Positions 704 through 20,441 of a DNA stretch of 33,867 nucleotides are shown piece after piece; the stretch's first letter is position 1; the number at the start of each line of letters is the position of its first letter. Origin of the DNA: Candidatus Firestoneibacteriota bacterium (GTDB taxonomy: Bacteria > Oederibacteriota > D2-FULL-39-29). Location of the stretch: the NCBI GenBank assembly GCA_903928075.1, contig CAIYPD010000037.1, positions 1-33,867 on the forward strand, in the 5' to 3' direction. Position numbers and translations under genes: made by a program. The notes below the pieces were generated by a model. It ran no database searches. It was not told the DNA's origin and was given only the letters and a program-made list of their open reading frames with translations.

Positions 704-736
704 AATATTCTCCTGAGTATCAGCTTTCGTTTGCGC

Positions 737-3917: not shown

Positions 3918-4002
3918 TATATTCTACTCCAAAAACACAGTTATATTCTACTACTTTAACAATGTATTCTTGTATTAAGAAGAGCTTTTATAGTAGAATA
4001 TA
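3918..4002. promoter_or_regulatory. Three copies of AGTAGAATATA in a divergent intergenic region
   Basis: The 177-base gap between the GH106 start and the CorA start holds the same motif three times. On the minus strand AGTAGAATATA reads at 3928-3918 and TAGTAGAATATA at 3953-3942, with 24 bases between equivalent positions. The third copy, TAGTAGAATATA at 3991-4002, is on the plus strand, so copies two and three form a perfect 12-base inverted repeat. The plus-strand copy contains a TAGAAT -10-like hexamer. Shared operators for the divergent pair are the simplest reading. The binding protein is unknown. Confidence 0.5.
3970..3999 (+). promoter_or_regulatory. Predicted sigma70-type promoter of the CorA gene
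   Basis: TTGTAT at 3970-3975 and TAGAAT at 3994-3999 are separated by 18 bases. Transcription would start near 4006, about 30 bases before the ATG at 4037. The -10 hexamer lies inside the plus-strand copy of the AGTAGAATATA motif, so a protein bound there would block polymerase. The match is by eye and not tested. Confidence 0.45.
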
Positions 4003-4036
4003 CCGACAATTTCTATTCAGCGGTTTTGGAGCGGAA

Positions 4037-4975
4037 ATGATAAAAAAATACTCTGTAGTTGACGGCCGACTCGCGGAAGCGCTTGAGCAGCCTGCGCTTA
4101 TTTCCATTTATGTCGATCCCGATGAAACCGAAAAGAAATACCTTATTGAGGAAAAAAAGATAAACGAGCATACCATTCAATCTTCTCTGGATCCGCATGA
4201 ACTCGGCCGCATTGAATTCACACCGGACCACGCCACGCTTATACTCAAAACCCCAAAAAGCTATGTCTCCGAAGATGACTTCCTTTTTAAAGTGAAATCT
4301 TTCGGACTTTTCATCTTCAGCGACCATCTTATACTGCTGCTGGCTGATGATTTTCCTATCTTTGAAAGTGAGTATTTCAAGAATACTTCTAATATTCAAG
4401 ACGCCTTGTTAAAACTTATAAATCAGTCTATCGGGCATTTCGAGTCGCACCTTAAAGTAATAAATATGGTCAATGACGAATTGGAACACGAAATAAACAC
4501 CTCGGTAACCAACCAGCAGCTGCTTAATATGTTTAAACTCGAAAAAAGCCTGGTCTTTTATCTGAACGCTATAAGTTCAAACAGTCATGTCATAGACAAA
4601 ATTAAAGTCAACGCCGCCAAATTTAACTTTACCCCGGCGCATCTTGAACTCTTAGACGACCTGGCTATCGAAAATGTACAGTGCTATAAAATGGCCGAGA
4701 TCTATTCCCAGGTCATCTCCGGCCTTATGGACGCGAGAGCTTCACTAATAAGCAATAATCTGAACTTCATGATGAAAAACCTGAACGCGCTGGTTATTGC
4801 CGTAGCGGTTCCCAGTTTCTTTGCCGGAGTCGGAGGCATGTCCGAATTTATGGTTATCTTTGGCGCAAAGAATACAACCTTGAGTTATGCGCTCTTTGTG
4901 CTCTCCATGATATTTATCGGCGCCGGAACTTTTTATATAATTAAAAAGACGGAAAAATTCTGGCAGGACATTTAA
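4037..4975 (+). CDS. CorA-family divalent cation transporter, variant GMS signature
   Basis: The 312-residue protein has the CorA layout: a soluble alpha/beta N-terminal domain, long helices (residues about 120-245) and two C-terminal membrane segments (NALVIAVAVPSFFAGVGGM and LSYALFVLSMIFIGAGTFYI), ending in a basic tail. CorA proteins are pentameric Mg2+/Co2+/Ni2+ channels. The usual Gly-Met-Asn selectivity motif after the first membrane segment reads Gly-Met-Ser here (residues about 267-269, GGMSEF). The frame stays open back to 3962, but the ATG at 4037 has GGAG five bases upstream and starts at a normal family N-terminus. It is the only complete plus-strand gene here and is convergent with the DUF4838 gene, whose stop is 8 bases away. 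It looks like a housekeeping gene next to the glycan locus. Confidence 0.85.
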   Translation: MIKKYSVVDGRLAEALEQPALISIYVDPDETEKKYLIEEKKINEHTIQSSLDPHELGRIEFTPDHATLILKTPKSYVSEDDFLFKVKSFGLFIFSDHLILLLADDFPIFESEYFKNTSNIQDALLKLINQSIGHFESHLKVINMVNDELEHEINTSVTNQQLLNMFKLEKSLVFYLNAISSNSHVIDKIKVNAAKFNFTPAHLELLDDLAIENVQCYKMAEIYSQVISGLMDARASLISNNLNFMMKNLNALVIAVAVPSFFAGVGGMSEFMVIFGAKNTTLSYALFVLSMIFIGAGTFYIIKKTEKFWQDI

Positions 4976-4983
4976 GAGATAAA

Positions 4984-7398
4984 TTACTCTTCCAGAAGCC
5001 AGAAGCAATCTAAAAATACTTTTCCCGGCCCCGGGGAACTAGTTTGTACATTAAAAGTGAAATATGCAGGATTAACAACCTCACCGATTTCAATAGGTTG
5101 AAAGCGGCCTTCCTCCAGGGTTTCAGCAAGGATACTTTTCGATATCTCTTTCATGTGTCTTGCAGCTTCAAGCGAAAGACCCATCGTAATGAATTTTGCC
5201 GGGATGCCTCTTGGTTGTTCCACCCCTGTCCCATATCCGCTATTGGAAACATTAAAGGAAATAGTCGCTCCTTTTTTTAGTTTGCCCTCTGTTTTTGCAC
5301 GGGCAAATACCCTGTATTTTTTATCCGGGGTGTAGTCTTCCCCTGGTGTAAGCCCTGACCATACGCCGAAGGTAAATTCTTTTAATACCTCTGCCCAGCC
5401 ATCACTTGCGCCGGCAGTTCTTTGCCAGAATTTCTGTTCCCCGTCCATCTGACAGGCCTGTATCAATCTGTACTTTGTTACGGCAACATCCTTAAGTTCA
5501 GGCGGCAGCGCTTTTCCCTCAAGCTCCGCATAGTCCTTAAGCCAGTCCGCGAATGACAAATTGCCTGCGCCCTGTTCTTTCATGGTTTGCGCAAAGCTTT
5601 TCGCCAGCTCGCGTATATCTATCCTGCCTGTCTTTTCTTCGGCCATTTTCCAGGTCAGACTCTTTGGCCCACGTTTTGCTAATATATACCAGACCGGTAG
5701 ATGGGCGTGCCGCACTCTTTTTTCCGACTCAGGGTCGCCCTTTGCAAGTTTTTCGGCTTCTTTTAACGCCTGCTCGGAGGCGGAAATAATTTCCGGCCTT
5801 AGATGGAGCGAATTCAGGTAACTCCCGTGGAAAGGTAAATAAATTTCTTTATTCTCCCGGGGGAACTTATGCAGTATATCAATATATTTTTGAATAGCGG
5901 GTGCCGCCGCGCCATAATACCCGTTAAGGAATTCGGCTATGAGCGCTTTGCCGTTAACCTCCGGATTCCAGAGCGCCTTTGCCATGAGCCACATGCGAAG
6001 CCCGTAAAATTCCGCACCCCTGTTGCCCAGGGAACCGAGAATAAAAATACCCTTGAAGTTATGCTCTGAATAATATTTTATATTGGGGACGAGGACATCC
6101 AGGTCAGGGTAGGGCATATAGGGATGCTCCAGGCTAACCGTATAATCGTAAAGCAGCATATTCCCGGAAATCTTGCTCCAGCCTTCCACTTCTCTTTTAA
6201 CCCTTTTGTTCTCGCCGGGCCGGTAAAGGTAGTGGCTGCCGGGCTGAAAATCATTTTCTATATCAATGTTCTCATCATTTCCGGCGGTAAGAGGATGCGC
6301 GTAATCACCTGATAAGGAATCATAGGCGATAATTACATTATCCCGAGGCTTCAAGGTCTTTGGCGGGTTGCAGGCCCAGGAGTAAGCGCCGGTAAGAATG
6401 CGCGCACCGGGAATTTCCTTTTCCACCCCTTCGGCCACCTGGTTGGCAAAACTGACAATAAGTCCGGAAGGGCCTTCCTCTTTCACCAGTTCGTTACAGT
6501 CCCTACAATGGCAATACTTACCTATTCCTTCCGTATCTAAAGAGACGGAAACGAACTTCGCATCAGGGTGCTCTTTCTGCTCTCTTATCACACTTGCCGT
6601 TACCGCTTTGACTACTTCAGGATTTGTAAAACACGGTTGAGTGTTCGGTTTGCGCTCTCCGTCTATGAGCTGCCACATATTTTTCGTTATTGTTACGCCT
6701 GAACTTAAAAGGAGAGCCTTGGACCCGTGTAAAAAATGACTGCCGACATACTCATACCTGCCGCCGATTTTTTCCTGGTCTGCCCCGGATTCCCAGGACA
6801 TCCCGTTAAGTTTATTTCTTGCCATCCAGAGCTTGCCGCTTGCATCCCAGGCATTTCCGTTCATCATATCGCGGTATTCAATTTTTGGAATGTCGGAGAT
6901 ATTTATTTCCGGCAGGCTGATAGTTGTCAGTTTCGGAATGAGAGTATCTGCAGGGGTCCACCAGCGGACACCCAGCTTTTCCAGGAAGGTATAGACTCCG
7001 TACATTGTGCCGCGTCTCCGGCCGCCCGCGATTACCAGACATTTACCGACGGTCCGTATCTCATAACCGTCTTCGCCAAGTTTTTTTGCCTCGAGCCTGA
7101 CTCCGAGCGACTGCGCTGCCGGTCCGTCACCGAGTATAATAGCCTGTTTTGGGACCGGAACCGACTCTGTCTGCACCTCAAGCGTCACACCGCTAATTTT
7201 TTTTAGATGCTCCACGAGTTCTTCAGCGGCCCATTTTTCCGAGAGGCTCGCTTCTTTGGCTAAAAGTACCACATAGCCGCTTTGGCCTTCAGTAACCAGG
7301 GTTAAGTCCGAAGCAAACACAGGAAAACAGGCGGTCTGCAGCAGAGCAAGCACCATCAGGGTTACACTTAATATAGAAATTTCTACTTTGGCTTTCAT
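4984..7398 (-). CDS. Secreted DUF4838-type protein, cassette A
   Basis: The 804-residue product has a signal peptide (residues 1-30, ending FPVFA). Residues about 32-150 form an alpha-glucuronidase/GH20-type N-terminal domain, with LSEKWAAEELVEHLKKISG and RGTMYGVYTFLEKLGVRWW. The central barrel (about 160-520) has the DUF4838 hallmark YCHCRDC. A jelly-roll-like end closes with FLDCFWLLEE. DUF4838 proteins occur in polysaccharide loci and resemble glycoside hydrolases, but I know of no firmly assigned activity. It starts 25 bases after the CBM9 protein and is probably co-transcribed with it. A diverged paralogue, sharing the domain order and the cysteine motif, lies at 14439-16730. The ATG at 7398 has an AGGAA box upstream. 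Confidence 0.8.
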   Translation of the reverse strand: MKAKVEISILSVTLMVLALLQTACFPVFASDLTLVTEGQSGYVVLLAKEASLSEKWAAEELVEHLKKISGVTLEVQTESVPVPKQAIILGDGPAAQSLGVRLEAKKLGEDGYEIRTVGKCLVIAGGRRRGTMYGVYTFLEKLGVRWWTPADTLIPKLTTISLPEINISDIPKIEYRDMMNGNAWDASGKLWMARNKLNGMSWESGADQEKIGGRYEYVGSHFLHGSKALLLSSGVTITKNMWQLIDGERKPNTQPCFTNPEVVKAVTASVIREQKEHPDAKFVSVSLDTEGIGKYCHCRDCNELVKEEGPSGLIVSFANQVAEGVEKEIPGARILTGAYSWACNPPKTLKPRDNVIIAYDSLSGDYAHPLTAGNDENIDIENDFQPGSHYLYRPGENKRVKREVEGWSKISGNMLLYDYTVSLEHPYMPYPDLDVLVPNIKYYSEHNFKGIFILGSLGNRGAEFYGLRMWLMAKALWNPEVNGKALIAEFLNGYYGAAAPAIQKYIDILHKFPRENKEIYLPFHGSYLNSLHLRPEIISASEQALKEAEKLAKGDPESEKRVRHAHLPVWYILAKRGPKSLTWKMAEEKTGRIDIRELAKSFAQTMKEQGAGNLSFADWLKDYAELEGKALPPELKDVAVTKYRLIQACQMDGEQKFWQRTAGASDGWAEVLKEFTFGVWSGLTPGEDYTPDKKYRVFARAKTEGKLKKGATISFNVSNSGYGTGVEQPRGIPAKFITMGLSLEAARHMKEISKSILAETLEEGRFQPIEIGEVVNPAYFTFNVQTSSPGPGKVFLDCFWLLEE

Positions 7399-7423
7399 AG
7401 GCTTTTTCCTGTTTACCTTTTAA

Positions 7424-10225
7424 TTATTCCAGAATCAGCGTCCCCAAACCTCTGGCATCTTCCCAGAAGGAAAAATTTGGTTTGAAAGGATAAAGTAGAT
7501 TCTGCTTTCTTGCCCAGCTTACTATCTCCCTATCAGCGCCTTTTTTTGTCGTCATTAAATTATCCTCTTTATCCCGGTCAGAAACACTTACCTGGAAACC
7601 TATACTCTCTCCTGAACTTACATTAATTTCAGCAAGCGGCGCAGAGCCTTCCACAAGATACCCCGTAGAAGTCCGGTAACAGGTGTATTTAAAACCGTTC
7701 TTGCCCTCACCGGATAATTTTTCTTTAGTGAGCGGGGCGTCTATCTGCCAGGCAAAATCCCATTTTTCCGACTTACTCTTAAAATTAAGATAATTTGAGC
7801 CGGAGAAGCGGAATTCGCAGCCGTCGGTCTTGTCCAAAACATCATCTCTGACTTCCAGACCGAGATAAAGCATCTTAGCGTCATGACAGAGCCGGAGTCG
7901 GATAGAAAGGTCTTTAGGCCCGGTCCAGCTGTTCGGGAAAAATACATGGCCCGCCAGGAACTCCCCACCCTCCGCCGTAATATCGGTTGCGTTTTTAGGC
8001 CAGTTATCAAGATTTCCGTTCAGCTCAAAAGCAGAAATAATTTTAGCGGACTTCACTTCCGGCCTTTTTAAAATATCCTTTCTTAACTCCAGTTCCTTTT
8101 CGAGGCCAAAGCCCAGCGCAACATCTGCCGAGTAAAGTTTTCCGTCTGCAAATAATTTCTTTGCAGCCTTAAGCGGCTCCAGGTAAACTTCCGGCGCGGC
8201 ATTTTCTTTGAGAGCCTTAAGTCCTTTATAAATATTCTCATAATTCTTAAGCCTATTTTCAACAAAGTTTTTGTATTCAGGGCAGGTGACGGCGGTAACT
8301 TTAGGTTCCGTCAAAACATTATCCGTCAAAGTCACAAGTTCATAGGGCGGAAGTTTAATATTTTTCCCGTCCAGAAAGAGTTCAGAAGCAAAAGGAACTT
8401 TGCTTTGTATCGAGATGTACCGTTTATTTTTATAATTCACCCATCTGACCGTTACGGTATCAGGCGCACCGGCAACATCCTTTAATATTTGAAAAGGCAG
8501 AGAGCGGAAAGCTTTTGCAAATCTTCTGGCGGCCGTCTCCATGCCAAAATACTTAACATTCCAGGTACCCTGAGTTATGCCCAGCCGGTCATTATGGGCT
8601 ATTACCCGGCCTAAAGAGGCCAGCGAGAGTGAAAGTGGCGGATTAAAATCAGGGCCGGTCCAGTCTTTTCTATACCAGAAGTTTTTTCCCTCCATTAAGC
8701 CGGTCCACGCCTCATTGAAGGTCGAAAAAACAGCGGCATAGTTTGAGCCCGCATTGTCAGACCGGGCCTGCGAGCGATCCACATCATAGTAGACGGCCGC
8801 GCGCGGCTGAAAGGTATATTGATAATGACATCTATGGTCATCGGGATGGAACATCTCATAAAAATTCAGGCCTTCTATTTTTCTCATTTCCGCAGGATCA
8901 TTTTTCCAGGATTTAAGACAGGCGGCAACCTCTTTTGCCAGGAACTTTGACCAGTCCCCGCCTTCTTTTTCCCATTTTAAAACTATGTCAACCATATCCG
9001 GACTGGAATTTCCCTGTATGGTCGTCCCATCAAAATAAGGCGACTGCAGGTATTTATTCCCCACATAGGTCATAACTTCCCAGTCAGGCCGCTTTTTCTT
9101 TATAAATTCTACTACCTCTTTTACAATCCCGGCTTTTTCCAGGAGATTATAAAAACCTATGGTTTCCATACTGCCCAGGGCTACACCCTTGAGTGATTTA
9201 TACTTTCCGTATTTTCCAATAAATTCGCCGAAGCCTTTGAGTATGACCTCTTTGAGTTCCTCCGGTTTCATATTTATCACATCTTTACCTTTGGATGTGA
9301 CCGTACCGTACATTCCTACCGCGACGATCCCTGCAATGAAATCAATCCCGCCTTTTTCATCCATTACCTTCAGGATGTCGTCCAGATAACCTTTATCGTC
9401 CGTATCCCAGGCAGGGACCGTGCACATAGCACCCCAGCTCTGATTTGCATAGACCATCATTGTGACTCTGTTAATGCCCGTATATTTGCAGTACTCAAGC
9501 ATATGCTCAACTGATTTTGTACTTTTACTTCCAAAATAATCTCTTGTAGCTAAAAACGCCAGAGGAAAGAACATATCCATAACTCTCTGCCGGTTTGCTT
9601 CCGGAGCCTCAATCTTTAATTCCGGCAGACCCCCGGAAATCTCATAGACCCAGATTCTTGCAGCCGCGCCTGAAGAGCCGTTTTGCATCATATTCTCAAT
9701 TAAAAGAGGCGTCCAATTATCCTGCGGCCACGAAATATAGGTAAAGTACTGCATTTTATTTGAAAGCGGAAGCGGCTCTCCGGTATAAACCCCGCCTTCC
9801 TGACTGAAAGACAGATGAGGTGCGCCGGACCTGTTCGAATCATGAGTCATAAAACTCATAAGCCGGACGGCATCATCGGGGTATTCTATAACAATAAAAA
9901 TGGGGTTGTCTTTTCCCGCAGTCTTATGCATATAAGAAAAGAAGGCGTGCCTGTGCGCGGCTGTGACTCTATAGTTACCGGCCGCGCCGGTTGTTATCTT
10001 CGAGGTGCCCTGATCCATAAAGCCGTGCGGGTCTTTCTGGTTCGCACAGTCTATAAAATCTATAAGTTTAAGTTTTAACCCGTGCTCCAGTTCCGCCGGC
10101 AGAGCAGGCGCATTTTTTACTATTTCCGCCGACATTTCCGGTGTTACCGGCTGCGGCTTTTCCGCTGCAGTTATATTTACGGCAAAAACCATTCCTAAAA
10201 ATAATGCGCAATAATATTTACTCAT
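7424..10225 (-). CDS. Secreted TIM-barrel-like protein with C-terminal CBM9 domain, cassette A
   Basis: The 933-residue product has a signal peptide (MSKYYCALFLGMVFAVNITAA). A beta-rich N-terminal part (about 30-220) is followed by a probable TIM barrel (about 225-620), a linker helix region, and a CBM9-like domain at about 726-933 (FELNGNLDNWP, LYLGLEVRDDVLD, GYLVEGSAPLAEI, IGFQVSVSD). CBM9-type modules bind glycan ends in xylanases and related enzymes. The barrel family is not one I recognise, so catalysis is a guess. It is clearly paralogous to the protein at 17586-20441 along its whole length (for example IDFIDC against VDYIDC, VIEYPDDAVR against VVEYPDDKER, RIWVYEISGGLP against RIWIYRIKGGLP). 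A GGGAGG box precedes the ATG. The gene lies between the PIG-L and DUF4838 genes with 25-base gaps on both sides. Confidence 0.78.
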   Translation of the reverse strand: MSKYYCALFLGMVFAVNITAAEKPQPVTPEMSAEIVKNAPALPAELEHGLKLKLIDFIDCANQKDPHGFMDQGTSKITTGAAGNYRVTAAHRHAFFSYMHKTAGKDNPIFIVIEYPDDAVRLMSFMTHDSNRSGAPHLSFSQEGGVYTGEPLPLSNKMQYFTYISWPQDNWTPLLIENMMQNGSSGAAARIWVYEISGGLPELKIEAPEANRQRVMDMFFPLAFLATRDYFGSKSTKSVEHMLEYCKYTGINRVTMMVYANQSWGAMCTVPAWDTDDKGYLDDILKVMDEKGGIDFIAGIVAVGMYGTVTSKGKDVINMKPEELKEVILKGFGEFIGKYGKYKSLKGVALGSMETIGFYNLLEKAGIVKEVVEFIKKKRPDWEVMTYVGNKYLQSPYFDGTTIQGNSSPDMVDIVLKWEKEGGDWSKFLAKEVAACLKSWKNDPAEMRKIEGLNFYEMFHPDDHRCHYQYTFQPRAAVYYDVDRSQARSDNAGSNYAAVFSTFNEAWTGLMEGKNFWYRKDWTGPDFNPPLSLSLASLGRVIAHNDRLGITQGTWNVKYFGMETAARRFAKAFRSLPFQILKDVAGAPDTVTVRWVNYKNKRYISIQSKVPFASELFLDGKNIKLPPYELVTLTDNVLTEPKVTAVTCPEYKNFVENRLKNYENIYKGLKALKENAAPEVYLEPLKAAKKLFADGKLYSADVALGFGLEKELELRKDILKRPEVKSAKIISAFELNGNLDNWPKNATDITAEGGEFLAGHVFFPNSWTGPKDLSIRLRLCHDAKMLYLGLEVRDDVLDKTDGCEFRFSGSNYLNFKSKSEKWDFAWQIDAPLTKEKLSGEGKNGFKYTCYRTSTGYLVEGSAPLAEINVSSGESIGFQVSVSDRDKEDNLMTTKKGADREIVSWARKQNLLYPFKPNFSFWEDARGLGTLILE

Positions 10226-10250
10226 CAGATCCTCCCGGTTCTAAAACTTA

Positions 10251-10958
10251 TTATTTTTCCTTGTTTTCAAGGAACTGATTGACGGTGTTTGTCTCGGCAA
10301 TACAGAAAGAGATAAAGACCTTTTTTCTGTTTTTCTTTATATCTTCTATCTCCCGGTTAAAATCTTCCTCTGTTTTTCTAAAGACAGAGTATTGAGACCT
10401 TTGAGTTTTCCAGGCTTCAAGTTCTTTTTCTGCGTAACCTGTCACTTCAAAAGAAACATAGGGCAGGCGGTAATTAACTTCCTTAAAATCATAGGAGGCG
10501 GACTTATAATAGTAGAGCCAGGGTTTTTTACACGGGGCGCCGAGTTCGGCGGCAACAGGTTCAGAGGCGTGAAAATACGCGTCTCTTGTCAGAGCATGGG
10601 CGTTCCGGTGGTCCCGGTGCACATCTTCGGGGCCGTGAGTAAAGAGCGCCTCCGGCCGGTACTTTCTTATTAACTTTATACATTTTTTAAGATTTTCCTT
10701 ACTGTTGGAAAGCGCCATATCGGGCGCGTCAAGGAATTCCCTGTTTTTAATACCCAGCGCTCTATCACAGGCTTTTGCTTCTTTTTTTCTCAGGGCCACA
10801 ATTTTATTTTTCAGTTTGGGATCAGGGTAACCCTCGGAACCGTCGGTCATAGTGATCACGGTAACTTCAACGCCTTCTGCCGCCATTTTCGCTATTGCAC
10901 AAGCCATCACTATCTCGTCATCCGGATGCGCTCCAAAAACCATTATTCTCTTATACAT
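10251..10958 (-). CDS. PIG-L family (LmbE-like) zinc-dependent deacetylase
   Basis: The 235-residue protein begins with RIMVFGAHPDDE, the metal-binding HPDDE motif of the PIG-L/LmbE/BshB family, and has the second motif HRDHRNAH near residue 115. Members remove N-acetyl groups from GlcNAc-containing substrates or related small molecules. Cytosolic, no signal peptide. The frame could start seven codons further up, but the ATG at 10958 has a GGGGGA box five bases before it. It sits between the PNPOx-like gene (33 bases upstream) and the CBM9 protein (25 bases downstream), so it is probably the second gene of a four-gene operon. This suggests an amino-sugar substituent in the target glycan, but that is inference. 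Confidence 0.87.
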   Translation of the reverse strand: MYKRIMVFGAHPDDEIVMACAIAKMAAEGVEVTVITMTDGSEGYPDPKLKNKIVALRKKEAKACDRALGIKNREFLDAPDMALSNSKENLKKCIKLIRKYRPEALFTHGPEDVHRDHRNAHALTRDAYFHASEPVAAELGAPCKKPWLYYYKSASYDFKEVNYRLPYVSFEVTGYAEKELEAWKTQRSQYSVFRKTEEDFNREIEDIKKNRKKVFISFCIAETNTVNQFLENKEK

Positions 10959-10991
10959 AAGTTCCCCCAGTTGCTGCATTTTTAAATAGTC

Positions 10992-11459
10992 TTACCATCT
11001 TTTTTTTCCTTTTAAACCGGTGATGCTTATCTTTACAATCGTTGTCGCAAGCAGGGATGCGGCAGAGTATTTCACCTTGCTTTTTGTATACTGCCGTAGA
11101 AGTATATCCAGCCCTTTCTTTTTTTCCGCAGCGTTTGCAAGAATACGGCACCTGCCCCGGCCTATCACGCTCAAAAATTTGGTCCCGGCGTCACAGGAGG
11201 TCATGGCTTTCTTGTATTTAACATAGCCGACAAATTCAAAGCAAACATTTGGATTTTTTTTGATGAAATCAAGTTTAAGCCCTTTTCCGGCTGAGTGAAA
11301 ATATATCGACTTACCGTCATATCCGAAAGAAAGCGGGACCACATAAGGCACATTCTTATAAGCCATCGCCAGATGCAGGACATCCGCTTTAGCAATTATT
11401 CCGTCAATAACCTTTCGGTCAGTAATTTCTCTGTCTTTCCTCCGCATCTCTTCCATCAT
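10992..11459 (-). CDS. PNPOx-like (pyridoxamine 5'-phosphate oxidase family) flavin-binding protein
   Basis: The 155-residue protein shows the split-barrel pattern of this family: an N-terminal helix (REITDRKVIDGIIAKADVLHLAM), PYVVPLSFGYDGKSIYFHSAGKG, then NPNVCFEFVGY and FLSVIGRGRCRIL. It resembles the NimA/FMN-binding branch rather than true PdxH. The role may be reduction of, or resistance to, electrophiles, or haem handling; the sequence does not decide. Two adjacent ATGs (11459, 11456) follow a GGGAG box. It is cytosolic and unusual for a glycan locus. It lies directly downstream of an amidohydrolase remnant and upstream of PIG-L. Confidence 0.8.
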   Translation of the reverse strand: MMEEMRRKDREITDRKVIDGIIAKADVLHLAMAYKNVPYVVPLSFGYDGKSIYFHSAGKGLKLDFIKKNPNVCFEFVGYVKYKKAMTSCDAGTKFLSVIGRGRCRILANAAEKKKGLDILLRQYTKSKVKYSAASLLATTIVKISITGLKGKKRW

Positions 11460-11486
11460 AAGTCTCCCAATTTTTGACCCGCCTGT

Positions 11487-11558
11487 TTACAAATTGTATA
11501 ATTTTTTAGCATTCGAGTAAAGAATGTTGTTGGACCTCAAACCTAACTTTCGCAGCAT
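11487..11558 (-). pseudogene. C-terminal remnant of a metal-dependent amidohydrolase
   Basis: Reading the minus strand in one frame to the TAA at 11489-11487 gives a tail ending NNILYSNAKKLYNL. This matches the last residues of the intact amidohydrolase at 13072-14331, KNILYSNAKNFYRI, at nine of fourteen positions, including the unbroken run NILYSNAK. The frame has a stop at 11561-11559, so only about 23 codons remain (MLRKLGLRS precedes the tail). It starts ten bases after the stop of the 488-residue gene. The simplest reading is that an amidohydrolase paralogue was lost by recombination or replacement, leaving its last codons. Confidence 0.6.
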
Positions 11559-11567
11559 TTAATTTTT

Positions 11568-13034
11568 TCAGCGCGGCACGCCTTTATAGATCCACGCCGT
11601 GTTGTGCACGGGGAAATAATTGCTGTCCGTACCCCCGGCATACAGAGTCCCCGGCGGGTCATCTTGAAAAGGCGACAGTACCAGAGTTCTTGTGGAAACC
11701 AGTTTAGGTTTAACCGCCAGAACCGGGTCGCTGATTTCTTTAAGTTCATAACTGCCATCCGCATGGCGCACCAGAAAATGGGCATCGGCATTCCAGTATT
11801 TAAAACGGCGTGCCGGCGCCAGTTCCGGTGTTGCAATTTCAAATCCGATAAGCAATGATGGCGGTCCTTTTGACGGATATGGGTAGACAAGCATATTGTT
11901 ATATGCCGCTACTCCGTATTTAACGGTGGTTTTCCAAATCCCGGCAAGATATTTGGAGACATTCAAGTCTTCCCTCCATTCAAAGTTTGCCAGGGGATTG
12001 ACGCTAAGTATTACCAGCGGATCATCTTCTATCGTAAGGAGTATCTGCTCGCCTTTCCCGCCGGGGCCGGGTATAGCCGTAAGCCCTCTAAATCCTGTTC
12101 CCCGTCCCGAATCAGAATTCAAATGATGCTCGAAAACTATTTTCCAGTTGGGCTTTAATCCGTCCTGTCGCTCATAAAGCCGGTCATAGACCGAAGCGTA
12201 AAGTTTGCCGTTGCATTCTACAAAACTGGTAACCCGAAGGTCATCTTTCGGCTGTTTGACATAGGCTTTGCTTTCCAGCAGCTCCGGCTTTTCATCCCAG
12301 ACTATACGGTCCTTCCGTGAATCATATTTACCCGGATAAATACCGGGATGCTCTTTCCAGCCAAAGCCTGCCAGGATCCGCTGTGTATGCGTAATTTTAT
12401 CTTCATAGAGAACAAAGCTGCGTACCGGGTGATACTGTGTTCCGTCATCAAGGACTGCGTTTATCCATTTTTCTGATTTGTCTGTTTTGTAGAAAACCTC
12501 GGTTGCTCCATCGCCATTCAGCCATACGCCGGCTATAAGAATAGAAACAGGAGGAATAGAATTGCCTTCCAGGTCTCTGATAAATTTAACAGTTGAAAGC
12601 ATGCTCACTGCCAAATACTTTCTACACCCTGCAAAATGAAACCGCATTGCCCAATTTTTAACTATTCTTATATTTAAAGGATTCCATTTGACACGTTCCG
12701 GGAGTTCCAGGTCTACTTTCCATTCGGAATTTGCCGAATCCAGGACCAGTACCTGAGCTCCCGGTAACTCCGGATTCTTTAACTGTGAATCAGACCAGTA
12801 GCCTATGGCTGCATAGAGTTTGCCTTTAAAAGGGACTAGAGACCTAGTCTCCGTACCTCCGAGAGTCCTGGTTTCGGGAGACATCCATTCGACCGGCAGG
12901 GACCGACTCCAGGCAAACGCAGGGAAAGACAACGCTTCGGCCATTAAACCCTCCCCTGAAATTATGAGCAACAGCATCAGGCAGATTATACCCCGTCCGT
13001 TTTTGTGTTCCCTAAAATCCGTCAGCCTACACAT
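11568..13034 (-). CDS. Secreted beta-propeller-like protein of unknown function
   Basis: The 488-residue product has a hydrophobic stretch after a charged start (GIICLMLLLIISGEGLMAEA, about residues 15-34), consistent with a signal peptide. The rest is a series of beta-type repeats such as LVPFKGKLYAAIGYW, SFVECNGKLYASVYDRLY and TLYAGGTDSNYFPVHNTAWIYKG, which suggest a propeller of kelch or sialidase-like type. No catalytic residues are recognised. The ATG at 13034 has AAGGA about nine bases upstream; an internal ATG at 12977 would shorten the leader. It follows the amidohydrolase with a 37-base gap and is probably in the same transcript. It could act as a glycan-binding or lyase-like propeller; I would not assign a function. 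Confidence 0.7.
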   Translation of the reverse strand: MCRLTDFREHKNGRGIICLMLLLIISGEGLMAEALSFPAFAWSRSLPVEWMSPETRTLGGTETRSLVPFKGKLYAAIGYWSDSQLKNPELPGAQVLVLDSANSEWKVDLELPERVKWNPLNIRIVKNWAMRFHFAGCRKYLAVSMLSTVKFIRDLEGNSIPPVSILIAGVWLNGDGATEVFYKTDKSEKWINAVLDDGTQYHPVRSFVLYEDKITHTQRILAGFGWKEHPGIYPGKYDSRKDRIVWDEKPELLESKAYVKQPKDDLRVTSFVECNGKLYASVYDRLYERQDGLKPNWKIVFEHHLNSDSGRGTGFRGLTAIPGPGGKGEQILLTIEDDPLVILSVNPLANFEWREDLNVSKYLAGIWKTTVKYGVAAYNNMLVYPYPSKGPPSLLIGFEIATPELAPARRFKYWNADAHFLVRHADGSYELKEISDPVLAVKPKLVSTRTLVLSPFQDDPPGTLYAGGTDSNYFPVHNTAWIYKGVPR

Positions 13035-13071
13035 CCCATTTTTCCTTTACTTTCATTGTCCCGGCTGTTAA

Positions 13072-14331
13072 TTAGATCCGGTAAAAGTTTTTCGCATTAG
13101 AATAGAGTATGTTCTTTGCAATAAACTTCGCTTCTTCAACCGTGGCAGAGTTTTTTTCTATCCTTTTTGAAAGCGCGCGAAAGAGGCTCTGTCTGGCATA
13201 CTTTGCCGCGCCGTAGGCCTGTTCCGCCCTGGAGCAGTCTCCGCCCCAGAATATTTTATTTGAAGGAACACAGTCAAGGAGCTCATTAAGCAGTACTTCG
13301 GTTTTGGTATCTGATATGATAGGCATCCAGCAGAGATTAAAATACACATTGGTCTGGCTCTTTGCCAGGACTATCAGACTTTCGGTAAAAGGATATCCCG
13401 CATGAAAAATATCAAAGCGCGCTTTTTCATATTTGATGAACAAGTTGTTCAGGTTAAGAGGCCGGGTCCATTCCAGAGGCCTTCCTCCGCCGTGCTGTAT
13501 GCCTGTGTGAACCTGGACAGGAAGAGAATGCTTAATGGAGAGTTCCATTATCCGGTGCATCATAAAATCCTGGAGCGCGGTTTTTTCCTGCGGGGAGGCC
13601 TTTGTTTCTCCTTTAACAAATATCCGCTTCGCGTCTTTTTCGGTTGTTTCCGCAAAATAAAGGCTTCTGTCGTAGGCCAGAGCGTTCTTTAAGGCCACTG
13701 CTCCGGCTTTTTTGAATTCACCTATACGCCTGTCTGTCCAGTTGACATAATCGTCCAGGTTTTTTATTTTAATGCCCTGTTTTCCCGCAAATTCACGGGA
13801 GTTATGTCCATTATGGTCTTTTTCTCCGAGAGCAGACATCACGAAAGTATTTATTCTTAAAACAGGAATATCTTTTTCGCCCCTCTTTGGTATTTCAAGC
13901 GTCCAGTATTCGTCTTCTAAATATTTCTCAATACGGGTTTTCTTTAAGACCGTATGGAACCAGTCGCGGTCGCAGGAGCGTTCTCTTATTACTTTATCAT
14001 ATTCCAGCCAGTTGGACCTTTCAAGCGAAGCCTTAATACCGTAGAGCTCCTTTAAGCCGTCAAAGAGAGAGCGAAAATAGGTCGTGGACCTGACATAAGG
14101 GAGGACTTTTTCAATTTCTTTCCATTTTTCGGCGGAAGAGGCAGAGGGAGAGAATGCTTTTAAGCCGGCCCGGTTAAAATCCGCGCCCGCATAAGACGAG
14201 GCAAGGAAGGAAAAAAGCTCAAGGCCCTTTTCAAAACCCGCAGTTCCACCCTTGTACCTGAAATGCTCATGGGTGTCTATAATACTTAAATTATCAATAA
14301 AATCTTTAAGTCCCTCGAGTTTTGAGTTCAC
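13072..14331 (-). CDS. Metal-dependent amidohydrolase / uronate isomerase-like TIM barrel
   Basis: The 419-residue cytosolic protein has the amidohydrolase-superfamily ligands: His21-x-His23 in SIIDTHEHF, a lysine in AVALKNALAYDR, histidines in VQVHTGIQHGGG and FDIFHAGYPF, and an aspartate in IFWGGDCSRAEQ. The overall look is amidohydrolase-2/uronate-isomerase-like rather than deacetylase-like. In a pectin- or ulvan-type locus a role on a uronate or its lactone is plausible but unproven. The start is a GTG at 14331 with only a weak box. A five-codon frame, MGNLP, starts at the better-placed ATG 14345 and ends with a TGA that overlaps the GTG, so translation may be coupled. The next gene starts 37 bases downstream. 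Confidence 0.8.
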   Translation of the reverse strand: MNSKLEGLKDFIDNLSIIDTHEHFRYKGGTAGFEKGLELFSFLASSYAGADFNRAGLKAFSPSASSAEKWKEIEKVLPYVRSTTYFRSLFDGLKELYGIKASLERSNWLEYDKVIRERSCDRDWFHTVLKKTRIEKYLEDEYWTLEIPKRGEKDIPVLRINTFVMSALGEKDHNGHNSREFAGKQGIKIKNLDDYVNWTDRRIGEFKKAGAVALKNALAYDRSLYFAETTEKDAKRIFVKGETKASPQEKTALQDFMMHRIMELSIKHSLPVQVHTGIQHGGGRPLEWTRPLNLNNLFIKYEKARFDIFHAGYPFTESLIVLAKSQTNVYFNLCWMPIISDTKTEVLLNELLDCVPSNKIFWGGDCSRAEQAYGAAKYARQSLFRALSKRIEKNSATVEEAKFIAKNILYSNAKNFYRI

Positions 14332-14356
14332 GGCAAATTACCCATCTTTTAGAGTC

Positions 14357-14420
14357 CTTTGGTTTATCCTGAATTCAGAGCTATCAATAATCCTAATATA
14401 TAATAGCAAACAAACCAAAG
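14357..14420 (-). promoter_or_regulatory. Promoter region with nested inverted repeats before the amidohydrolase
   Basis: Between the DUF4838 stop and the amidohydrolase start lie CTTTGGTTT at 14357-14365 and its exact complement at 14412-14420, flanking a perfect palindrome CTGAATTCAG at 14369-14378. On the minus strand a TTGGTT hexamer inside the upstream arm is followed after 17 bases by TAGGAT, a modest promoter match. The arms and palindrome could be operator sites or a stem in the leader. Support is by eye only. Confidence 0.35.
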
Positions 14421-14438
14421 CATTTCTATCCTTAAAAT

Positions 14439-16730
14439 TTACTTTCCGGTCTCAACCAGCCAGATACAATCTATATAGAGAGCTTCCAGCCGGTCAGGTA
14501 AGTTAAGCTTACTCCAGAAGCCGCAGCCAATCCCCTTTAACTTCGTTTTACCCAATTCAAAAATATGCCAGTTTTCATCGTTAATTTCATCGGCTTTGAT
14601 TTTTTTTATTACCAGGTCATTTACTCCAAACTCAATAACCTCACCGGATAACTCTTTGCTTATACCTTTTACTTTACACCTTACAAATATTGAATAGTTC
14701 ACACCTTCCTTAAAATCGTTGGTATCGCTGAAATAATGCTGCACCTGCCTCTCTTTGCTTTTTTGCGTTTTCAAGGCCCAGCCCGCCGATGCATCACCGG
14801 CCCGCTCGCAGGAAGCCTCGCCCCTATCCAGCTGCCAGGAATGGATTAGCCGGAGATTACCGGTATCCTTCGTATTTATTTTAAGGACTTCAGTCACCTT
14901 CTTTTCTGAAATACTGCCGTAATCCTCTATGCACTTGATAAGTTTATTCAGGGACTGCCCTTCGGCGGATTTTTGTATGTTAAAATCCTTAACTACCCCA
15001 TTAAATTTGCGCGCAACCTCTTTTATCTCCGTTTTTCCCGCTTTTGCTTCTACCTCTTTCCACATAGGTGAAAATACACCCATTTTTAATAAAACATACC
15101 AGACAGGCATATGCGCATGGGCAACTCTTTTCATATAGACTTCGTTATTTTCTACCGCTTTTTCAGCCTCTCTTAAATAAACTTCCGCTTCGGCTATAAT
15201 CCCCGGAGCTATAAACGGCACATTGGTATGCCGGTAAATATTTAAGACAAAATCCTTATGCTCTCGGATATACCTGTGAATTGTTTCAATATATTTAAGT
15301 ATCGCCGGGGCCGCCGGACCGTAATAACCTTCCACAAATTCTTTTATTAGCGCCCTACTGTCGCTTGCCGGCTGCCATAATATTTTTGCCAGGACCCAGA
15401 GCCTTAGCTGGGCGAATTCGGTACCGGTGCCGTCCCAAGGGCCGAGTTCCATAACCCCCGTGACTTTATTATCGATATAATAACTGATATTTTCGGCCGG
15501 GGAATCCAGGTTTGGATAGGGCATTAGATAATGAAGGAAATTCGTCGAATAATCCCAGATGATTATTTTTGAGGATATTTTTGACCAGGCTTCCAGATCT
15601 TTTCTGAAAATTACATTTGCCTCATTTTTCGAAGTTCCTATCGGGTGCCCAAAATCACATTCATAAGAGCAGAGGATGATATAAACATTAGAGGCCGGCC
15701 GCAGTGTCTTTGGCGGCGTCTGGGACCAGGCGTAGGCGGTTGTGGCAATAAAGGCCTTCGGGATATCTTTTTTTACGGCGTCGGCTACTTTGTTTACAAA
15801 ATAAATTACAGGCGCGGACTCCGAGCCTTCTTCTTTTGCCAGTTTCGCACAATTCTCACAGCGGCAGTAATCGTAGCCGTCTTCCTGGCTGACGGTGATA
15901 AATTTCAGGCCTGGGGTTTTTCTCCACTCTTTTTTTACCGCCTCCGCCATCGCTAAAACTACATCAGGATTTGTAAGGCATAATTGGACATTTCTCTTAA
16001 GCTTTTCTTCCCGCCTGCCGTTTACAAAAGCGAGCATTTCCGGTTTTATATCTTTATTGTTTTTAAGCAGATTAAAATAGATGTGAGCCAGTCCCCCGCC
16101 GCCGTATTTATAGGCGCCGCCGTACTGTTCAGGAATCTGTTTCCAGCCGTTTAGCTTATTCCTTGCCGCCCAGAGTTTACCTTTTTCGTTGTAAATATCA
16201 TTATAGGCCAGGTCCCTGAGTTCTAACTTCGGCTTTTCCTCTAGTTCAAACTCAGAGAGGGTTATGGTTTTTTCCTCAGGAATACTGCTTTCCGTGGGAG
16301 TCCACCACCTGCATCCGAGTCTTTCCAAAAGGGTATAAACACCGTACAAAGTGCCTCTATCTTTACCCCCGGCTATCAGAATAAAATCCTTCTTTACTTT
16401 TATTAAATACTCATCCGGCGAGAAATCCTTGAAGCCCTCTTCATCAAACTCCCGCCAACCCGCAGCGCCCACATATACAGAAAGCAGGTTTTTCTCGGGC
16501 TCTTTAACTATCTTAATATCCGCCCCGCTTATAAGTTTAAGGTGGGCCTTAAGTTCTTCGGCCGCCCATTTCTCGCTGATACTCTCCTTGCCCGACAAAA
16601 CGATCACGCATTTAGGTTCATGATTTTCCGTTAAAACAACCCGGGTCTCGGCGCCGCAAGGAATAAATATTGCAAGTACTAATGAAAACCCTAAAACATT
16701 CCCGCATAGTACTCTTTTAAAATTCGTCAT
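14439..16730 (-). CDS. Secreted DUF4838-type protein, cassette B
   Basis: The 763-residue paralogue of the cassette A DUF4838 protein has a signal peptide (residues 1-28, about GFSLVLAIFIPCGAE) and an alpha-glucuronidase-type N-terminal domain with SEKWAAEELKAHLKLISG and RGTLYGVYTLLERLGCRWW. The DUF4838 barrel carries YCRCENCAKLAKEEG near residue 285 and TAYAWSQTPPKTLRP after it. A jelly-roll-like C-terminus ends LEALYIDCIWLVETGK. The ATG overlaps the TGA of the preceding small gene by four bases (ATGA at 16730-16727), so the two are translationally coupled. Known family context is secreted polysaccharide breakdown; the reaction is not established. Compared with copy A it is about 40 residues shorter. 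Confidence 0.8.
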   Translation of the reverse strand: MTNFKRVLCGNVLGFSLVLAIFIPCGAETRVVLTENHEPKCVIVLSGKESISEKWAAEELKAHLKLISGADIKIVKEPEKNLLSVYVGAAGWREFDEEGFKDFSPDEYLIKVKKDFILIAGGKDRGTLYGVYTLLERLGCRWWTPTESSIPEEKTITLSEFELEEKPKLELRDLAYNDIYNEKGKLWAARNKLNGWKQIPEQYGGAYKYGGGGLAHIYFNLLKNNKDIKPEMLAFVNGRREEKLKRNVQLCLTNPDVVLAMAEAVKKEWRKTPGLKFITVSQEDGYDYCRCENCAKLAKEEGSESAPVIYFVNKVADAVKKDIPKAFIATTAYAWSQTPPKTLRPASNVYIILCSYECDFGHPIGTSKNEANVIFRKDLEAWSKISSKIIIWDYSTNFLHYLMPYPNLDSPAENISYYIDNKVTGVMELGPWDGTGTEFAQLRLWVLAKILWQPASDSRALIKEFVEGYYGPAAPAILKYIETIHRYIREHKDFVLNIYRHTNVPFIAPGIIAEAEVYLREAEKAVENNEVYMKRVAHAHMPVWYVLLKMGVFSPMWKEVEAKAGKTEIKEVARKFNGVVKDFNIQKSAEGQSLNKLIKCIEDYGSISEKKVTEVLKINTKDTGNLRLIHSWQLDRGEASCERAGDASAGWALKTQKSKERQVQHYFSDTNDFKEGVNYSIFVRCKVKGISKELSGEVIEFGVNDLVIKKIKADEINDENWHIFELGKTKLKGIGCGFWSKLNLPDRLEALYIDCIWLVETGK

Positions 16731-17338
16731 TTACCTTCTTTACCGGGAGCGGCTTTTCCCTTTCCGCTGTCCTTTGCTTCAACAAAGGCCACTATCTCCG
16801 TCAGGGTCTTTGTGGTCATATACATTGTAAAAATAAATTCCTTACCGTCTTTTGTTATTTCCTTTCCGCCGCCGCTAAGGCCCTTAGCAGACATGGCCGG
16901 TTGCATTGTTAGAACTTTAAATTCCTGTCCCTTTGGACATACGAGCTTCACGGGATTACCTAAAGCATCCTTACAGCCGTCATTTTTTGTTTGAAGTGTT
17001 ACCGTCTTATCGGGAGCTTTCATAATATCACAATACTCCTCGCGCCATTTTGTAAAGTATTTTTTGCACAACGGTTCTGCCACACCCCGCAGAGCTTGAA
17101 TACTTTTTTTGTCACCTGGCACATCCCCGGTCTTTATGGTCGCCTTGGCCAGCAACGACTGAAAACTGCCGTCAGCATTTGTCTTTACCCGGAGTATTCC
17201 GTCCGGTAAAGCTTTAATTTCCTCGAACAAAGCAGCACTCTTTAATTCTTCAGCCGGATCCTTCTCCTGCCCCAGGAAGGGCAGTACCAGCGCAGCCAGC
17301 AGTATCAGACTTTTAGCAAACATCCGTGCATTTTTCAT
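16727..17338 (-). CDS. Small secreted protein of unknown function
   Basis: The 203-residue product has a signal peptide (MKNARMFAKSLILLAALVLP) and a mature part with four cysteines: CKKYF and EYCDIM, then DGCKDALG and LVCPKGQEF, which could form two disulfides. It ends in a glycine/lysine-rich tail (KGKAAPGKEGK). I do not recognise the family. A GGAGAG box lies about eight bases before the ATG. Its stop codon overlaps the start of the DUF4838 gene, so it is likely made in fixed ratio with that protein and may be its partner. Cassette A has no equivalent between its CBM9 and DUF4838 genes. Confidence 0.75.
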   Translation of the reverse strand: MKNARMFAKSLILLAALVLPFLGQEKDPAEELKSAALFEEIKALPDGILRVKTNADGSFQSLLAKATIKTGDVPGDKKSIQALRGVAEPLCKKYFTKWREEYCDIMKAPDKTVTLQTKNDGCKDALGNPVKLVCPKGQEFKVLTMQPAMSAKGLSGGGKEITKDGKEFIFTMYMTTKTLTEIVAFVEAKDSGKGKAAPGKEGK

Positions 17339-17463
17339 ATTTTTCTCTCCTTTTCATCAGCTTCCTTCTCCCTTTTTTATCTTTCAACATCTATTATCTA
17401 TTATTCTATTGTTCCATTGCTCTACCCCGGGAGAAAGTATGGATGAGGGTCATTGGTTTTCAC

Positions 17464-17582
17464 TCAGGTACAAGGTACAAGCAACAAGGAAAAGCCTATT
17501 TATTTCATGCTCTCTTACCCTGCGAAGCAGCCCGCCTCAGGAGAGTTGTCCCCTGTCCCTTGTACCTTGTACTTCGTACTTT
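17464..17582 (-). repeat. Dispersed GTACAAG-type intergenic repeat, copy 2
   Basis: The second copy of the element at 737-861. The left end (CTCAGGTACAAGGTACAAG) and the right end (CCTTGTACTTCGTACTTTG) are shared, while the central 50 or so bases differ. The inverted arms are at 17468-17481 and 17559-17572 (14 bases perfect). On the minus strand it begins three bases after the stop codon of the CBM9 protein at 17586. Both copies have the same orientation relative to the gene they follow. Conserved ends with a variable centre suggest hairpin-driven mobility or selection on the stem. Confidence 0.75.
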
Positions 17583-17585
17583 GCC

Positions 17586-20441
17586 TTATTGTTTCAATTC
17601 AAGTTCGCCGCAGGTTTGTGGGTCGCGGTCAGATCTCCAGAATTTGCGCGGATGAATCGGCCACTCCATCTGCTTCTCCTTCCGGAACGAAAATGTCATC
17701 CTAGCCAATTTCTTAAAATAGGTCTGATCCAGGTCCGTATCGGTCAAGATGATACTAACACCAATGCGTTCGCCGGATTTCATATTCAGGTCTGCCAGGG
17801 GAATTTTAACTTCACCCTGGTAACCGTCGCTATTTTTCTTCAAACAATAATTTTTCCCGTTTACGGCTTCGCCTGTCAGCGGAGCTTCCAGAGCCAGGGG
17901 TTTTAACTTCCCGTAACCCTGCTTCTCGTACGGCGAAAGATATTTATCCTTGTTTAAATATATTTCTATCTTATCCTTCGCCATAAGTACATCGTCTTGC
18001 ACCTTAAAAGCAATGTAAAGATTTTCATTATCATAAAGAAAAGATATAGTGGCGCTTAGGTCTGCTTTCCCTTTCCACCAGTTAAAGAGCCAGTGGTCGC
18101 TGACCAGATTGGCCGGTTCGTCAATATTGACAGTCACCGCGCCCTTCCATTCATCAAGCTGACCGTCAATTACTATATTATTTTTCGTTCTTGGACAGGC
18201 TATCTTTGGTTTGTCAAGATAAAGGTCAATATAAGCCGCCAGTTGATTATCCAAAGTGAACCCCAGAGCCAGGTCAGCCGCTTCCTCTTCCCCTTTGGCT
18301 AAAAGAGCCGCGACCTGCCGTGCTAGCGCTTTATATTTATCCAGAACAGGCGCCGCAGCGGATTTTTCCAGCCGTTTTATTTTGTCATTGAACGCACCTA
18401 TTCTATCTTGAATATGCCGGCGGCTTTCTTCACCACGGGTAAGGGAAATATTAGAGAGCTTTGAACCGCTTTGCGCCGTAAAGGTCTGCAGTTGATAAGG
18501 TTCCAGAGTGACCGTAAAGACGCCGGCCTTCGCCGCAAGTGCTTGCCCGTCAGTTAATTGTTCAGCCTTGCCTGCCCCGCCCAGACTAAAAGTTAAAGTA
18601 GCTTTACTATAGTGATTGTTTAGCAGGTAAAAATAATATTTGCCGTCAAGATTCAGGTCCCGGGTCACAATATAGCGGGATTTTTCTCGGGTGGTAAACT
18701 TCTCTGCCGGCAGGGTCCTGTAAGCCCGGGCAAACTCCCTCACCTGATGGGCGGAGCCGTTAATAGGATCTGACCAGCCGGAATTGATTATGAACGGCAC
18801 ATCATCGTGAGCCAGCGCGCCGGTATAACTTTCCATGAAATACGGTTCCGACGGATTACACTGGGGTGCTATCCAGGTCCGGTCCCACCAGAAATTTTGC
18901 CCTTCCAAAAGCGCCGAGGTAATTTCAAAATAAGTGCCAAAGAGACAGGCCCCGGTTGCGGCATTTCCGTTGGTGACAAGATCGGCAACCCCCTGGGAAC
19001 GGTTAAAATCCCGGTAAATCATATGGACCGGGGAAACGCTTAGCGGATAGGTTTCAAAAACCCGCTGATCTACCGGATAATAACTGCGTACCGGGACTAA
19101 ACCCTGCCGGTTCTTGTAGTCTGCGAGGTTCAACTTTATATCCTGATAATAGCGGCCGACATTTTTGGTGAGTAGATCCTCAAAAGCGGCTGCAGGTTCT
19201 TTTTCCCATTTTGAGATAATATCGGTATAGGGCCAGTGACCCTCTTTCTTTAAACTGAAGACGGCCCCGTGATGCAGGTACTGGTAGCCGAAATACGCGT
19301 ACACCAGAATGTCCGGCCGTTTTTTTGCAAGAATGGCGGTCAAGCCCTGCTGTAATTTGCCAAGGCTGTCGCTAAGCATCCGGTTGCAGCCGGCCGGGCC
19401 GCCAAACGAAATCCCCTTTAACGACGGGTGATTGCCGTATTTATCAACAAATTCTCCTATGGCTTTGACCCAGTTCTGCGCAGATTTTTCATCGAGATCG
19501 CCCGTCTGAACTCCATTGACCACAAATTCTTTCATGGGATCAAAAACTGCTATGAAATTTATTTTTTTCTTGTCGCAGGCTGCCAGCATATTCTCGGTAT
19601 CGGGATCTTTCTCTTCTCCAAAAGCCGGGAGAAAGCAGTGCGACCATTTATACATAACACTGTCAAAAGAAAATAGGTTTTGGCCGGAATAGGCAAGATA
19701 CTCGGTGAGGCGTTCAGACCCTTTTTGATTATTACCGAAATTATACCTGATCAAATGGCTATACTCATAAAAAGTTCCTATCTGCCGCTTGGCTCCCTTG
19801 GGTTCATTGACACGCGCTGCCGGCAGGCCGCCTTTGATACGATAGATCCAGATACGCGACATAGCTGCGGGTACGCCGTGCTGTAAGTTCAAACAGACCA
19901 GGGCCGGCCAGGGTGTCTTTGGCCAAAAAAATAATTGTTGATAGCAGTACTTATTTGTATTGGGAAATTCGCCGCCGCTGGAATAGCCTTCTTCAACATG
20001 AAAATTTAAATTAAAGGTTCCATTCATCCCCTCTTCATGCAGAAAAAGGCTGGCTACTCTTTCTTTATCGTCCGGATATTCCACCACTACCAGATGGGGT
20101 TCCTCAATGGCCTCGGTATTAAAACGGTAGGAGAAAAAACTGTTGTCCGCCACAGTGGTTTCCCGGTACTTCCCCATGAGACCTTCCGCCACTTTCGACC
20201 AGCCGTCATCCGTAAAAGGATGCGTTTCACCCGGTTCGGTGCAGTCGATGTAATCCACAAGCTCCAGGTCAAGATCCGGCGCCAGCCGGGCAGGCTTGGG
20301 GGCTTTTATGAGAATGGCGGAGATATCCTTCTTGGGAAGAGGAACAAACTTTACTTCCGCGCCGAAAGTCCCGGGAAAAATAAAAAGAAAACACAAAAGC
20401 ACCGGGAGCCTCAACCAAAAATTACCGGAATTATTTTTCAT
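17586..20441 (-). CDS. Secreted TIM-barrel-like protein with C-terminal CBM9 domain, cassette B
   Basis: The 951-residue paralogue of the protein at 7424-10225 has a signal peptide (LRLPVLLCFLFIFPGTFGAE, about residues 9-28), a beta-rich N-terminal part, a probable TIM barrel (about 230-640), a helical linker, and a CBM9-like domain at about 746-951 (NNIVIDGQLDEWKG, LYIAFKVQDDVL, GYQGEVKIPLADL, IGVSIILTD). The open frame extends to 20507, but the ATG at 20441 has an AGGAG box seven bases upstream and is followed at once by the signal sequence. The CBM9 core is better preserved here than in copy A. It lies 70 bases downstream of the agarase-like gene and is followed by the dispersed repeat. 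Its activity is unknown. Confidence 0.78.
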   Translation of the reverse strand: MKNNSGNFWLRLPVLLCFLFIFPGTFGAEVKFVPLPKKDISAILIKAPKPARLAPDLDLELVDYIDCTEPGETHPFTDDGWSKVAEGLMGKYRETTVADNSFFSYRFNTEAIEEPHLVVVEYPDDKERVASLFLHEEGMNGTFNLNFHVEEGYSSGGEFPNTNKYCYQQLFFWPKTPWPALVCLNLQHGVPAAMSRIWIYRIKGGLPAARVNEPKGAKRQIGTFYEYSHLIRYNFGNNQKGSERLTEYLAYSGQNLFSFDSVMYKWSHCFLPAFGEEKDPDTENMLAACDKKKINFIAVFDPMKEFVVNGVQTGDLDEKSAQNWVKAIGEFVDKYGNHPSLKGISFGGPAGCNRMLSDSLGKLQQGLTAILAKKRPDILVYAYFGYQYLHHGAVFSLKKEGHWPYTDIISKWEKEPAAAFEDLLTKNVGRYYQDIKLNLADYKNRQGLVPVRSYYPVDQRVFETYPLSVSPVHMIYRDFNRSQGVADLVTNGNAATGACLFGTYFEITSALLEGQNFWWDRTWIAPQCNPSEPYFMESYTGALAHDDVPFIINSGWSDPINGSAHQVREFARAYRTLPAEKFTTREKSRYIVTRDLNLDGKYYFYLLNNHYSKATLTFSLGGAGKAEQLTDGQALAAKAGVFTVTLEPYQLQTFTAQSGSKLSNISLTRGEESRRHIQDRIGAFNDKIKRLEKSAAAPVLDKYKALARQVAALLAKGEEEAADLALGFTLDNQLAAYIDLYLDKPKIACPRTKNNIVIDGQLDEWKGAVTVNIDEPANLVSDHWLFNWWKGKADLSATISFLYDNENLYIAFKVQDDVLMAKDKIEIYLNKDKYLSPYEKQGYGKLKPLALEAPLTGEAVNGKNYCLKKNSDGYQGEVKIPLADLNMKSGERIGVSIILTDTDLDQTYFKKLARMTFSFRKEKQMEWPIHPRKFWRSDRDPQTCGELELKQ

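Follow-up and report, generated by a model that had tools for sequence, protein, structure and literature searches.

The window, by which we mean the whole stretch of DNA analysed (33,867 nucleotides, the complete contig G000:C37 from a 2.7-Mb Candidatus Firestonebacteria genome), contains two gene pairs of the same make-up, and it is unlikely that one is a copy of the other. In the account that we favour and regard as fairly probable, two anciently diverged barrel paralogues each gained a DUF4838 gene behind them, by different routes. Barrels A and B would be old paralogues within an unclassified family of secreted proteins, and pair A would be an old two-gene unit that is conserved in the sister species. 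The ancestral B unit would have consisted of barrel B and a small secreted protein, and DUF4838-B would fill a variable slot behind that unit, a slot that in the sister species is taken by a beta-helix gene. Two points are worth keeping: the barrels form an unclassified family, and DUF4838-A is in an altered state. The case is also a caution for calling gene pairs from a single genome, as a two-gene arrangement can arise twice on one contig without duplication.

The two gene pairs and their surroundings

The genus is represented by two species only, that of the window and a sister species, G001 (Candidatus Firestonebacteria AM-2014_bin-3360), whose genome is 86% complete. The preliminary description of the window had reported a gene for a CBM9-tailed barrel protein followed by a gene for a DUF4838 protein, twice, in the same order and on the same strand; all the open reading frames concerned were confirmed at their positions (Table 1). 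The paralogues had also been described as alignable along their length yet diverged, and the comparisons agree: barrels A and B align end-to-end with 29% identity over 961 columns (E=5e-109), and the two DUF4838 proteins with 36% identity over 730 columns (E=4e-140). Signal-peptide-like N-terminal stretches can be read from the sequence in all four proteins. In the second pair, the start of DUF4838-B overlaps the end of the small secreted gene by 4 bases.

Table 1. Positions in the window of the genes, codons and repeat copies discussed in the text
Feature	Positions	Strand	Remarks
Barrel A	10225-7424	minus	933 aa ORF; signal peptide; orthologue 83% identical in G001
DUF4838-A	7398-4984	minus	804 aa; Glyco_hydro_67N-like N-terminal domain and DUF4838; G001 orthologue 72% identical, adjacent to barrel
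Barrel B	20441-17586	minus	951 aa; architecture as barrel A, other subfamily; G001 orthologue 82% identical
Small secreted gene	17338-16727	minus	203 aa; no Pfam match; behind barrel B in G001 too
DUF4838-B	16730-14439	minus	763 aa; conserved DUF4838 residues kept
Codon of E505, barrel A	8711-8713	minus	candidate catalytic glutamate
Codon of E506, barrel B	18924-18926	minus	counterpart of E505 in barrel A
Interspersed hairpin repeat, 131 bp	17453-17583		absent from the same place in G001
Second, partial repeat copy	726-860		flanked by the GH106 gene and the gene truncated at the contig end

The window is a single polysaccharide-degradation cluster. Pfam matches around both pairs include GH106, GH28, a sulfatase, two esterases and an F5/8 type C protein, together with a UxaC-like amidohydrolase, a PIG-L deacetylase, an AP_endonuc_2 protein and an IclR regulator. 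These neighbours suggest, rather than prove, a substrate rich in rhamnose and uronate, and pectin is our guess at an example.

The left end of the window (1-329) overlaps positions 1-329 of another contig, C48 (L022), over 329 bp with 93.6% identity. C48 holds the remainder of the gene that is truncated at window position 1 and then a third DUF4838 gene; it is probably the continuation of the same cluster, broken by strain variation. Between DUF4838-A and the GH106 gene, the window has a CorA-like transporter gene (3962-4975, plus strand); in G001 DUF4838-A and GH106 are directly adjacent, without this gene between them.

Trees, the sister species and the history of the pairs

The genome of the window has four barrel genes (A, B and one each on contigs C115 and C96) and four DUF4838 genes. 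The C115 barrel is nearest to A (47% identity) and the C96 barrel nearest to B (51%); no DUF4838 gene lies beside either. In a tree of 20 barrels, in which nearly all branches are well supported, barrel B of both species groups with the C96 and C58 barrels in a B-type clade. The A-type side includes C115, a protein from a genome of the Verrucomicrobiota sample (G210) and one from an Opitutales record (L026); fully supported branches separate the two subfamilies, and the G210 protein is a closer relative of barrel A than either C115 or barrel B. The split between A and B is thus older than the divergence of the A-type proteins, which now occur in two phyla. In the DUF4838 tree, DUF4838-A groups with the gene on C48 (support 96/94) and DUF4838-B falls outside that group. 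An AU test did not formally reject a grouping of DUF4838-A with DUF4838-B (p 0.08 on the careful tree, 0.26 on a larger, quick tree), and so the DUF4838 half of the history is less certain than the barrel half.

G001 retains pair A whole, with 22 bases between the genes compared with 26 in the window. All orthologue pairs measured have omega of about 0.05-0.16. Pair A is thus genuinely conserved as a unit in both species, with purifying selection acting on it, and is a candidate transcription unit within the genus. At the B locus of G001, barrel B is followed after 43 bases (247 in the window) by the small secreted gene (74% identity), and this in turn by the gene for a beta-helix protein of 423 aa. 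DUF4838-B was found neither there nor elsewhere in the genome of G001; since that genome is 86% complete, the gene could lie in the missing sequence, and loss rather than gain is possible too. Only the species of the window is so far known to have the second pair. The opposite case occurs in the C96/C58 cluster: here a DUF4838 gene follows the barrel at a distance of about 8 kb in G001 and is missing from the genome of the window. Taken together, the B locus and this cluster indicate that the barrels stay put and that DUF4838 genes come and go. On C96 itself, a hydrolase-like gene is followed by an IS200-like (Y1_Tnp) transposase gene (L015, G000:C96, 6430-7116 and 7132-8843); the former is split over two frames in the genome of the window, compared with a single 550-aa ORF in G001.

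The preliminary description had taken the two pairs for a duplicated cassette, a reading that distant placement of the copies in trees would count against. The barrels do fall in distant clades, and G001 has no DUF4838 gene at the B locus; only for the DUF4838 genes does the tree leave room, as the AU test shows. A version of the duplication that accommodates these results would place it very early, with DUF4838 lost afterwards from most lineages and DUF4838-B lost from G001. We consider this unlikely. The repetition of order and strand within one cluster speaks for it, as does the AU test, which does not reject an A+B clade of DUF4838 proteins, but it requires independent loss or separation at C115, at C96/C58, at G210, at the Opitutales barrel and in G001; furthermore, the nearest relative of DUF4838-A is the gene on C48, and the two families are unlinked in nearly all other genomes.

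It had also been proposed that a repeat element and the small secreted gene entered between the genes of the second pair. For the repeat, the one new element between the B genes, this agrees with its absence from the same place in G001, but the small gene, which is behind barrel B in both species, is ancestral at the locus and not an intruder. The repeat has 35 matches in the genome of the window; in G001 a single, weak match is seen. Folded as single-stranded DNA, it forms a hairpin whose ends are complementary (z -3.1), and it may have contributed to rearrangements. Copies adjoin DUF4838-B and the DUF4838 gene on contig C47 (L131, 16333-16451), and a weak similarity to the repeat lies directly behind the DUF4838 gene on C48 (L022, about 3648-3693).

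A near-identical copy of the C47 gene is found in G385, a 5.9-Mb genome of the Verrucomicrobiota sample, on an 8.5-kb contig (L132, G385:C86) that matches C47 with 97.6% identity over 7.2 kb. Rather than a transfer, this contig is most likely a stray, mis-binned piece of Firestonebacteria DNA, in view of that identity and of the fact that it carries the only repeat copy in G385.

An unclassified family of barrel proteins

In barrel A, an N-terminal beta-sandwich (about residues 40-200) is followed by a TIM-type barrel (about 235-560), a C-terminal sandwich (590-636), a helical linker (649-719) and the CBM9 tail (723-933); in barrel B the tail is at about residues 758-907. The CBM9_1 model (PF06452) matches A and B with 38.6 and 36.6 bits, respectively (Pfam cut-off 23.4). 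The tail also matches the CBM9 of Thermotoga maritima Xyn10A (1i82), by sequence with E=1.4e-5 and by structure with a TM-score of 0.62; the difference is that here it is attached to a barrel matched by no xylanase family model. When solved structures were searched by sequence, CBM9 was the sole match for the barrel proteins. As for the barrel, which had been said to fit no recognised family, the region indeed has no match in Pfam (E<=0.1) or NCBIfam.

A search of contigs with barrel A alone returned nothing, and a search with a seven-row alignment returned only G001 and one Opitutales record. The Verrucomicrobiota sample has many distant relatives, in which LamG domains often precede the barrel. 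Given so many copies and no Pfam or NCBIfam model, an assay of one barrel would name the function of many proteins. Two sets of matches were rejected as relatives: those in the same phylum outside the genus (G028, G038 and others) cover the CBM9 tail only, and the LamG domains of the distant relatives, which are missing from A and B, account for the matches of a wide profile to PDB sequences of arabinanase, pentraxin and neurotoxin binding domains.

Six of the seven relatives that were run against Pfam give matches to GHL10 (PF02638) below the gathering score of 27.9 bits (best 25.4 bits, E down to 9.5e-6); barrels A and B have no match to this model at E<=0.1. In a single, weak profile comparison (E=0.008), the first barrel strands align in order with E. 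coli DigH. The GHL10 domain of C. difficile Cwp19 has a conserved Asp pair, D195/D196, and GHL10 has a Gly at the end of strand 7 (PMC5765458). The barrels seem to differ at both places: in the weak hhalign alignment to DigH, the Asp pair (after the DGxxFDD strand) is aligned with LGS/FGG or LHL in A and B, and in place of the Gly there is an invariant Glu at the probable end of strand 7.

The C-terminal sandwich after the barrel is a likeness to GH13-type alpha-glucan enzymes, and in a 3Di search the barrel B model matches GH13 and GH30 enzymes best (E about 5e-12); however, the TM-scores are only 0.24-0.37, the strand-4 position has no acid, and the GH13 family models in Pfam and NCBIfam do not match the barrels. 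The structure models are moderate to weak (pLDDT 58-59, pTM about 0.5, with the second half of the barrel poorly defined), and Foldseek TM-scores are low except for the CBM9 tail, so the fold class and the assignment of strands are provisional. With the fold class read in that way, the barrels belong to an unclassified GHL10/GH13-like family.

E505 (numbering of barrel A) is invariant in 17 of 17 family sequences and, with the exception of D546 towards the end of the barrel, is the sole invariant acidic barrel residue among them; D463 and R465 are kept in most of the 17. By the order of predicted strands in the moderate models, E505 is probably located at the end of barrel strand 7, which is the position of the nucleophile in many glycosidases. 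At the strand-4 acid position of clan GH-A, the barrels have no conserved acid. E505 is therefore a candidate catalytic glutamate by conservation and predicted position, possibly acting together with D463. With moderate confidence, the barrels may be regarded as glycosidases; they would be exported enzymes of GH13/GHL10-like layout, held to their substrate by CBM9, with catalysis through the strand-7 E505, perhaps with D463.

A quite unlikely alternative is that the barrels are non-enzymatic secreted carbohydrate-binding proteins with a degenerate barrel. It would fit the unconserved GH-A acid, the non-acidic residues of A and B opposite the GHL10 Asp pair and the poor definition of the second barrel half in the models, but it does not sit well with the conservation of E505, D463 and R465 across distant relatives or with the purifying selection on the barrels.

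DUF4838 proteins and their linkage to barrels

DUF4838-A and DUF4838-B are both full members of the DUF4838 family with a Glyco_hydro_67N / GH20b-like N-terminus (PF16126, 246.5 and 287 bits, respectively; Pfam cut-off 26.6). The family has matches in 173 of the 388 sampled genomes; in the literature, as available in part, DUF4838 has one passing mention, with nothing functional, and PF16126 has none. Positions conserved over 90% elsewhere were compared in a scan of 38 DUF4838 sequences. DUF4838-A is changed at 15 of 66 such near-invariant positions, the most of any row, whereas DUF4838-B is changed at 3 of 61. The changes in DUF4838-A, at residues kept by nearly all other members, include HPE to TKN (238-240), QxD to LxT (287, 289), W417 to Y and the two Cys of positions 360 and 364; DUF4838-A still has the CxCxxC motif. 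DUF4838-B keeps nearly all the family residues (HPE, QxD, CxCxxC), with K229 in place of the H.

The G001 orthologue of DUF4838-A is changed at 14 of 66 positions, in a list that hardly differs, and so the alteration is older than the split of the two species. Omega for DUF4838-A is about 0.1, with dS of 1.8 (near saturation), and thus the gene is not decaying. With many near-invariant residues changed under purifying selection, its chemistry or role has probably changed, which is most naturally read as a switch of substrate or a move to a non-catalytic role. The changed residues are presumably those of the active site. The suggestion that the two copies had split specificity is partly backed by these results, in that A has changed and B has not, and this natural contrast indicates residues of interest.

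In the favoured account, DUF4838 proteins would be separate enzymes of GH67/GH20-like glycosidase fold that act in the same pathway as the barrels, probably on a rhamnose- and uronate-containing glycan such as pectin, and DUF4838-A, which does not have the usual active-site-like residues, would probably have a new substrate or no catalysis. A more specific proposal, possible but doubtful, is that the barrel is a new glycoside hydrolase family of Verrucomicrobiota and Firestonebacteria, with the strand-7 Glu set in a GHL10-like scaffold that has lost the Asp residues, and that in pair A it works alongside a DUF4838 protein that has taken on a new activity or become a non-catalytic helper.

Linkage outside the genus was examined in the flanks of 41 DUF4838 loci (40 and G198, in the Verrucomicrobiota sample) and 39 barrel loci (37 relatives in that sample, together with G210 and L026), with all ORFs in the flanks searched with profiles of both families. 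Several flank regions are shorter than 10 kb because contigs end, and in two of the 40 DUF4838 regions (L145 and L170) the DUF4838 gene was not recovered by the ORF caller. None of the 41 DUF4838 loci has a barrel nearby, and a DUF4838 gene is near one of the 39 barrels. In this sole linked locus (L090, genome G374), the DUF4838 gene is two genes on, with a prepilin-like gene between, and the cluster contains GH123. These counts argue against a general functional pair and make linkage the exception. The two proteins had been proposed to act as a pair on one glycan, with occurrence in other genomes as the check; the idea survives for pair A only. That barrel and DUF4838 form a dedicated pair on one linkage wherever found is very unlikely. 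In its favour, pair A is kept with short gaps in two species and L090 is an independent co-occurrence, but the counts outside the genus and the beta-helix protein in the partner's place at the B locus of G001 weigh against it.

The nearest outside relatives of the DUF4838 group of the genus are two tandem DUF4838 genes (L133, 5792-10529, G198:C22) in a genome of the Verrucomicrobiota sample.
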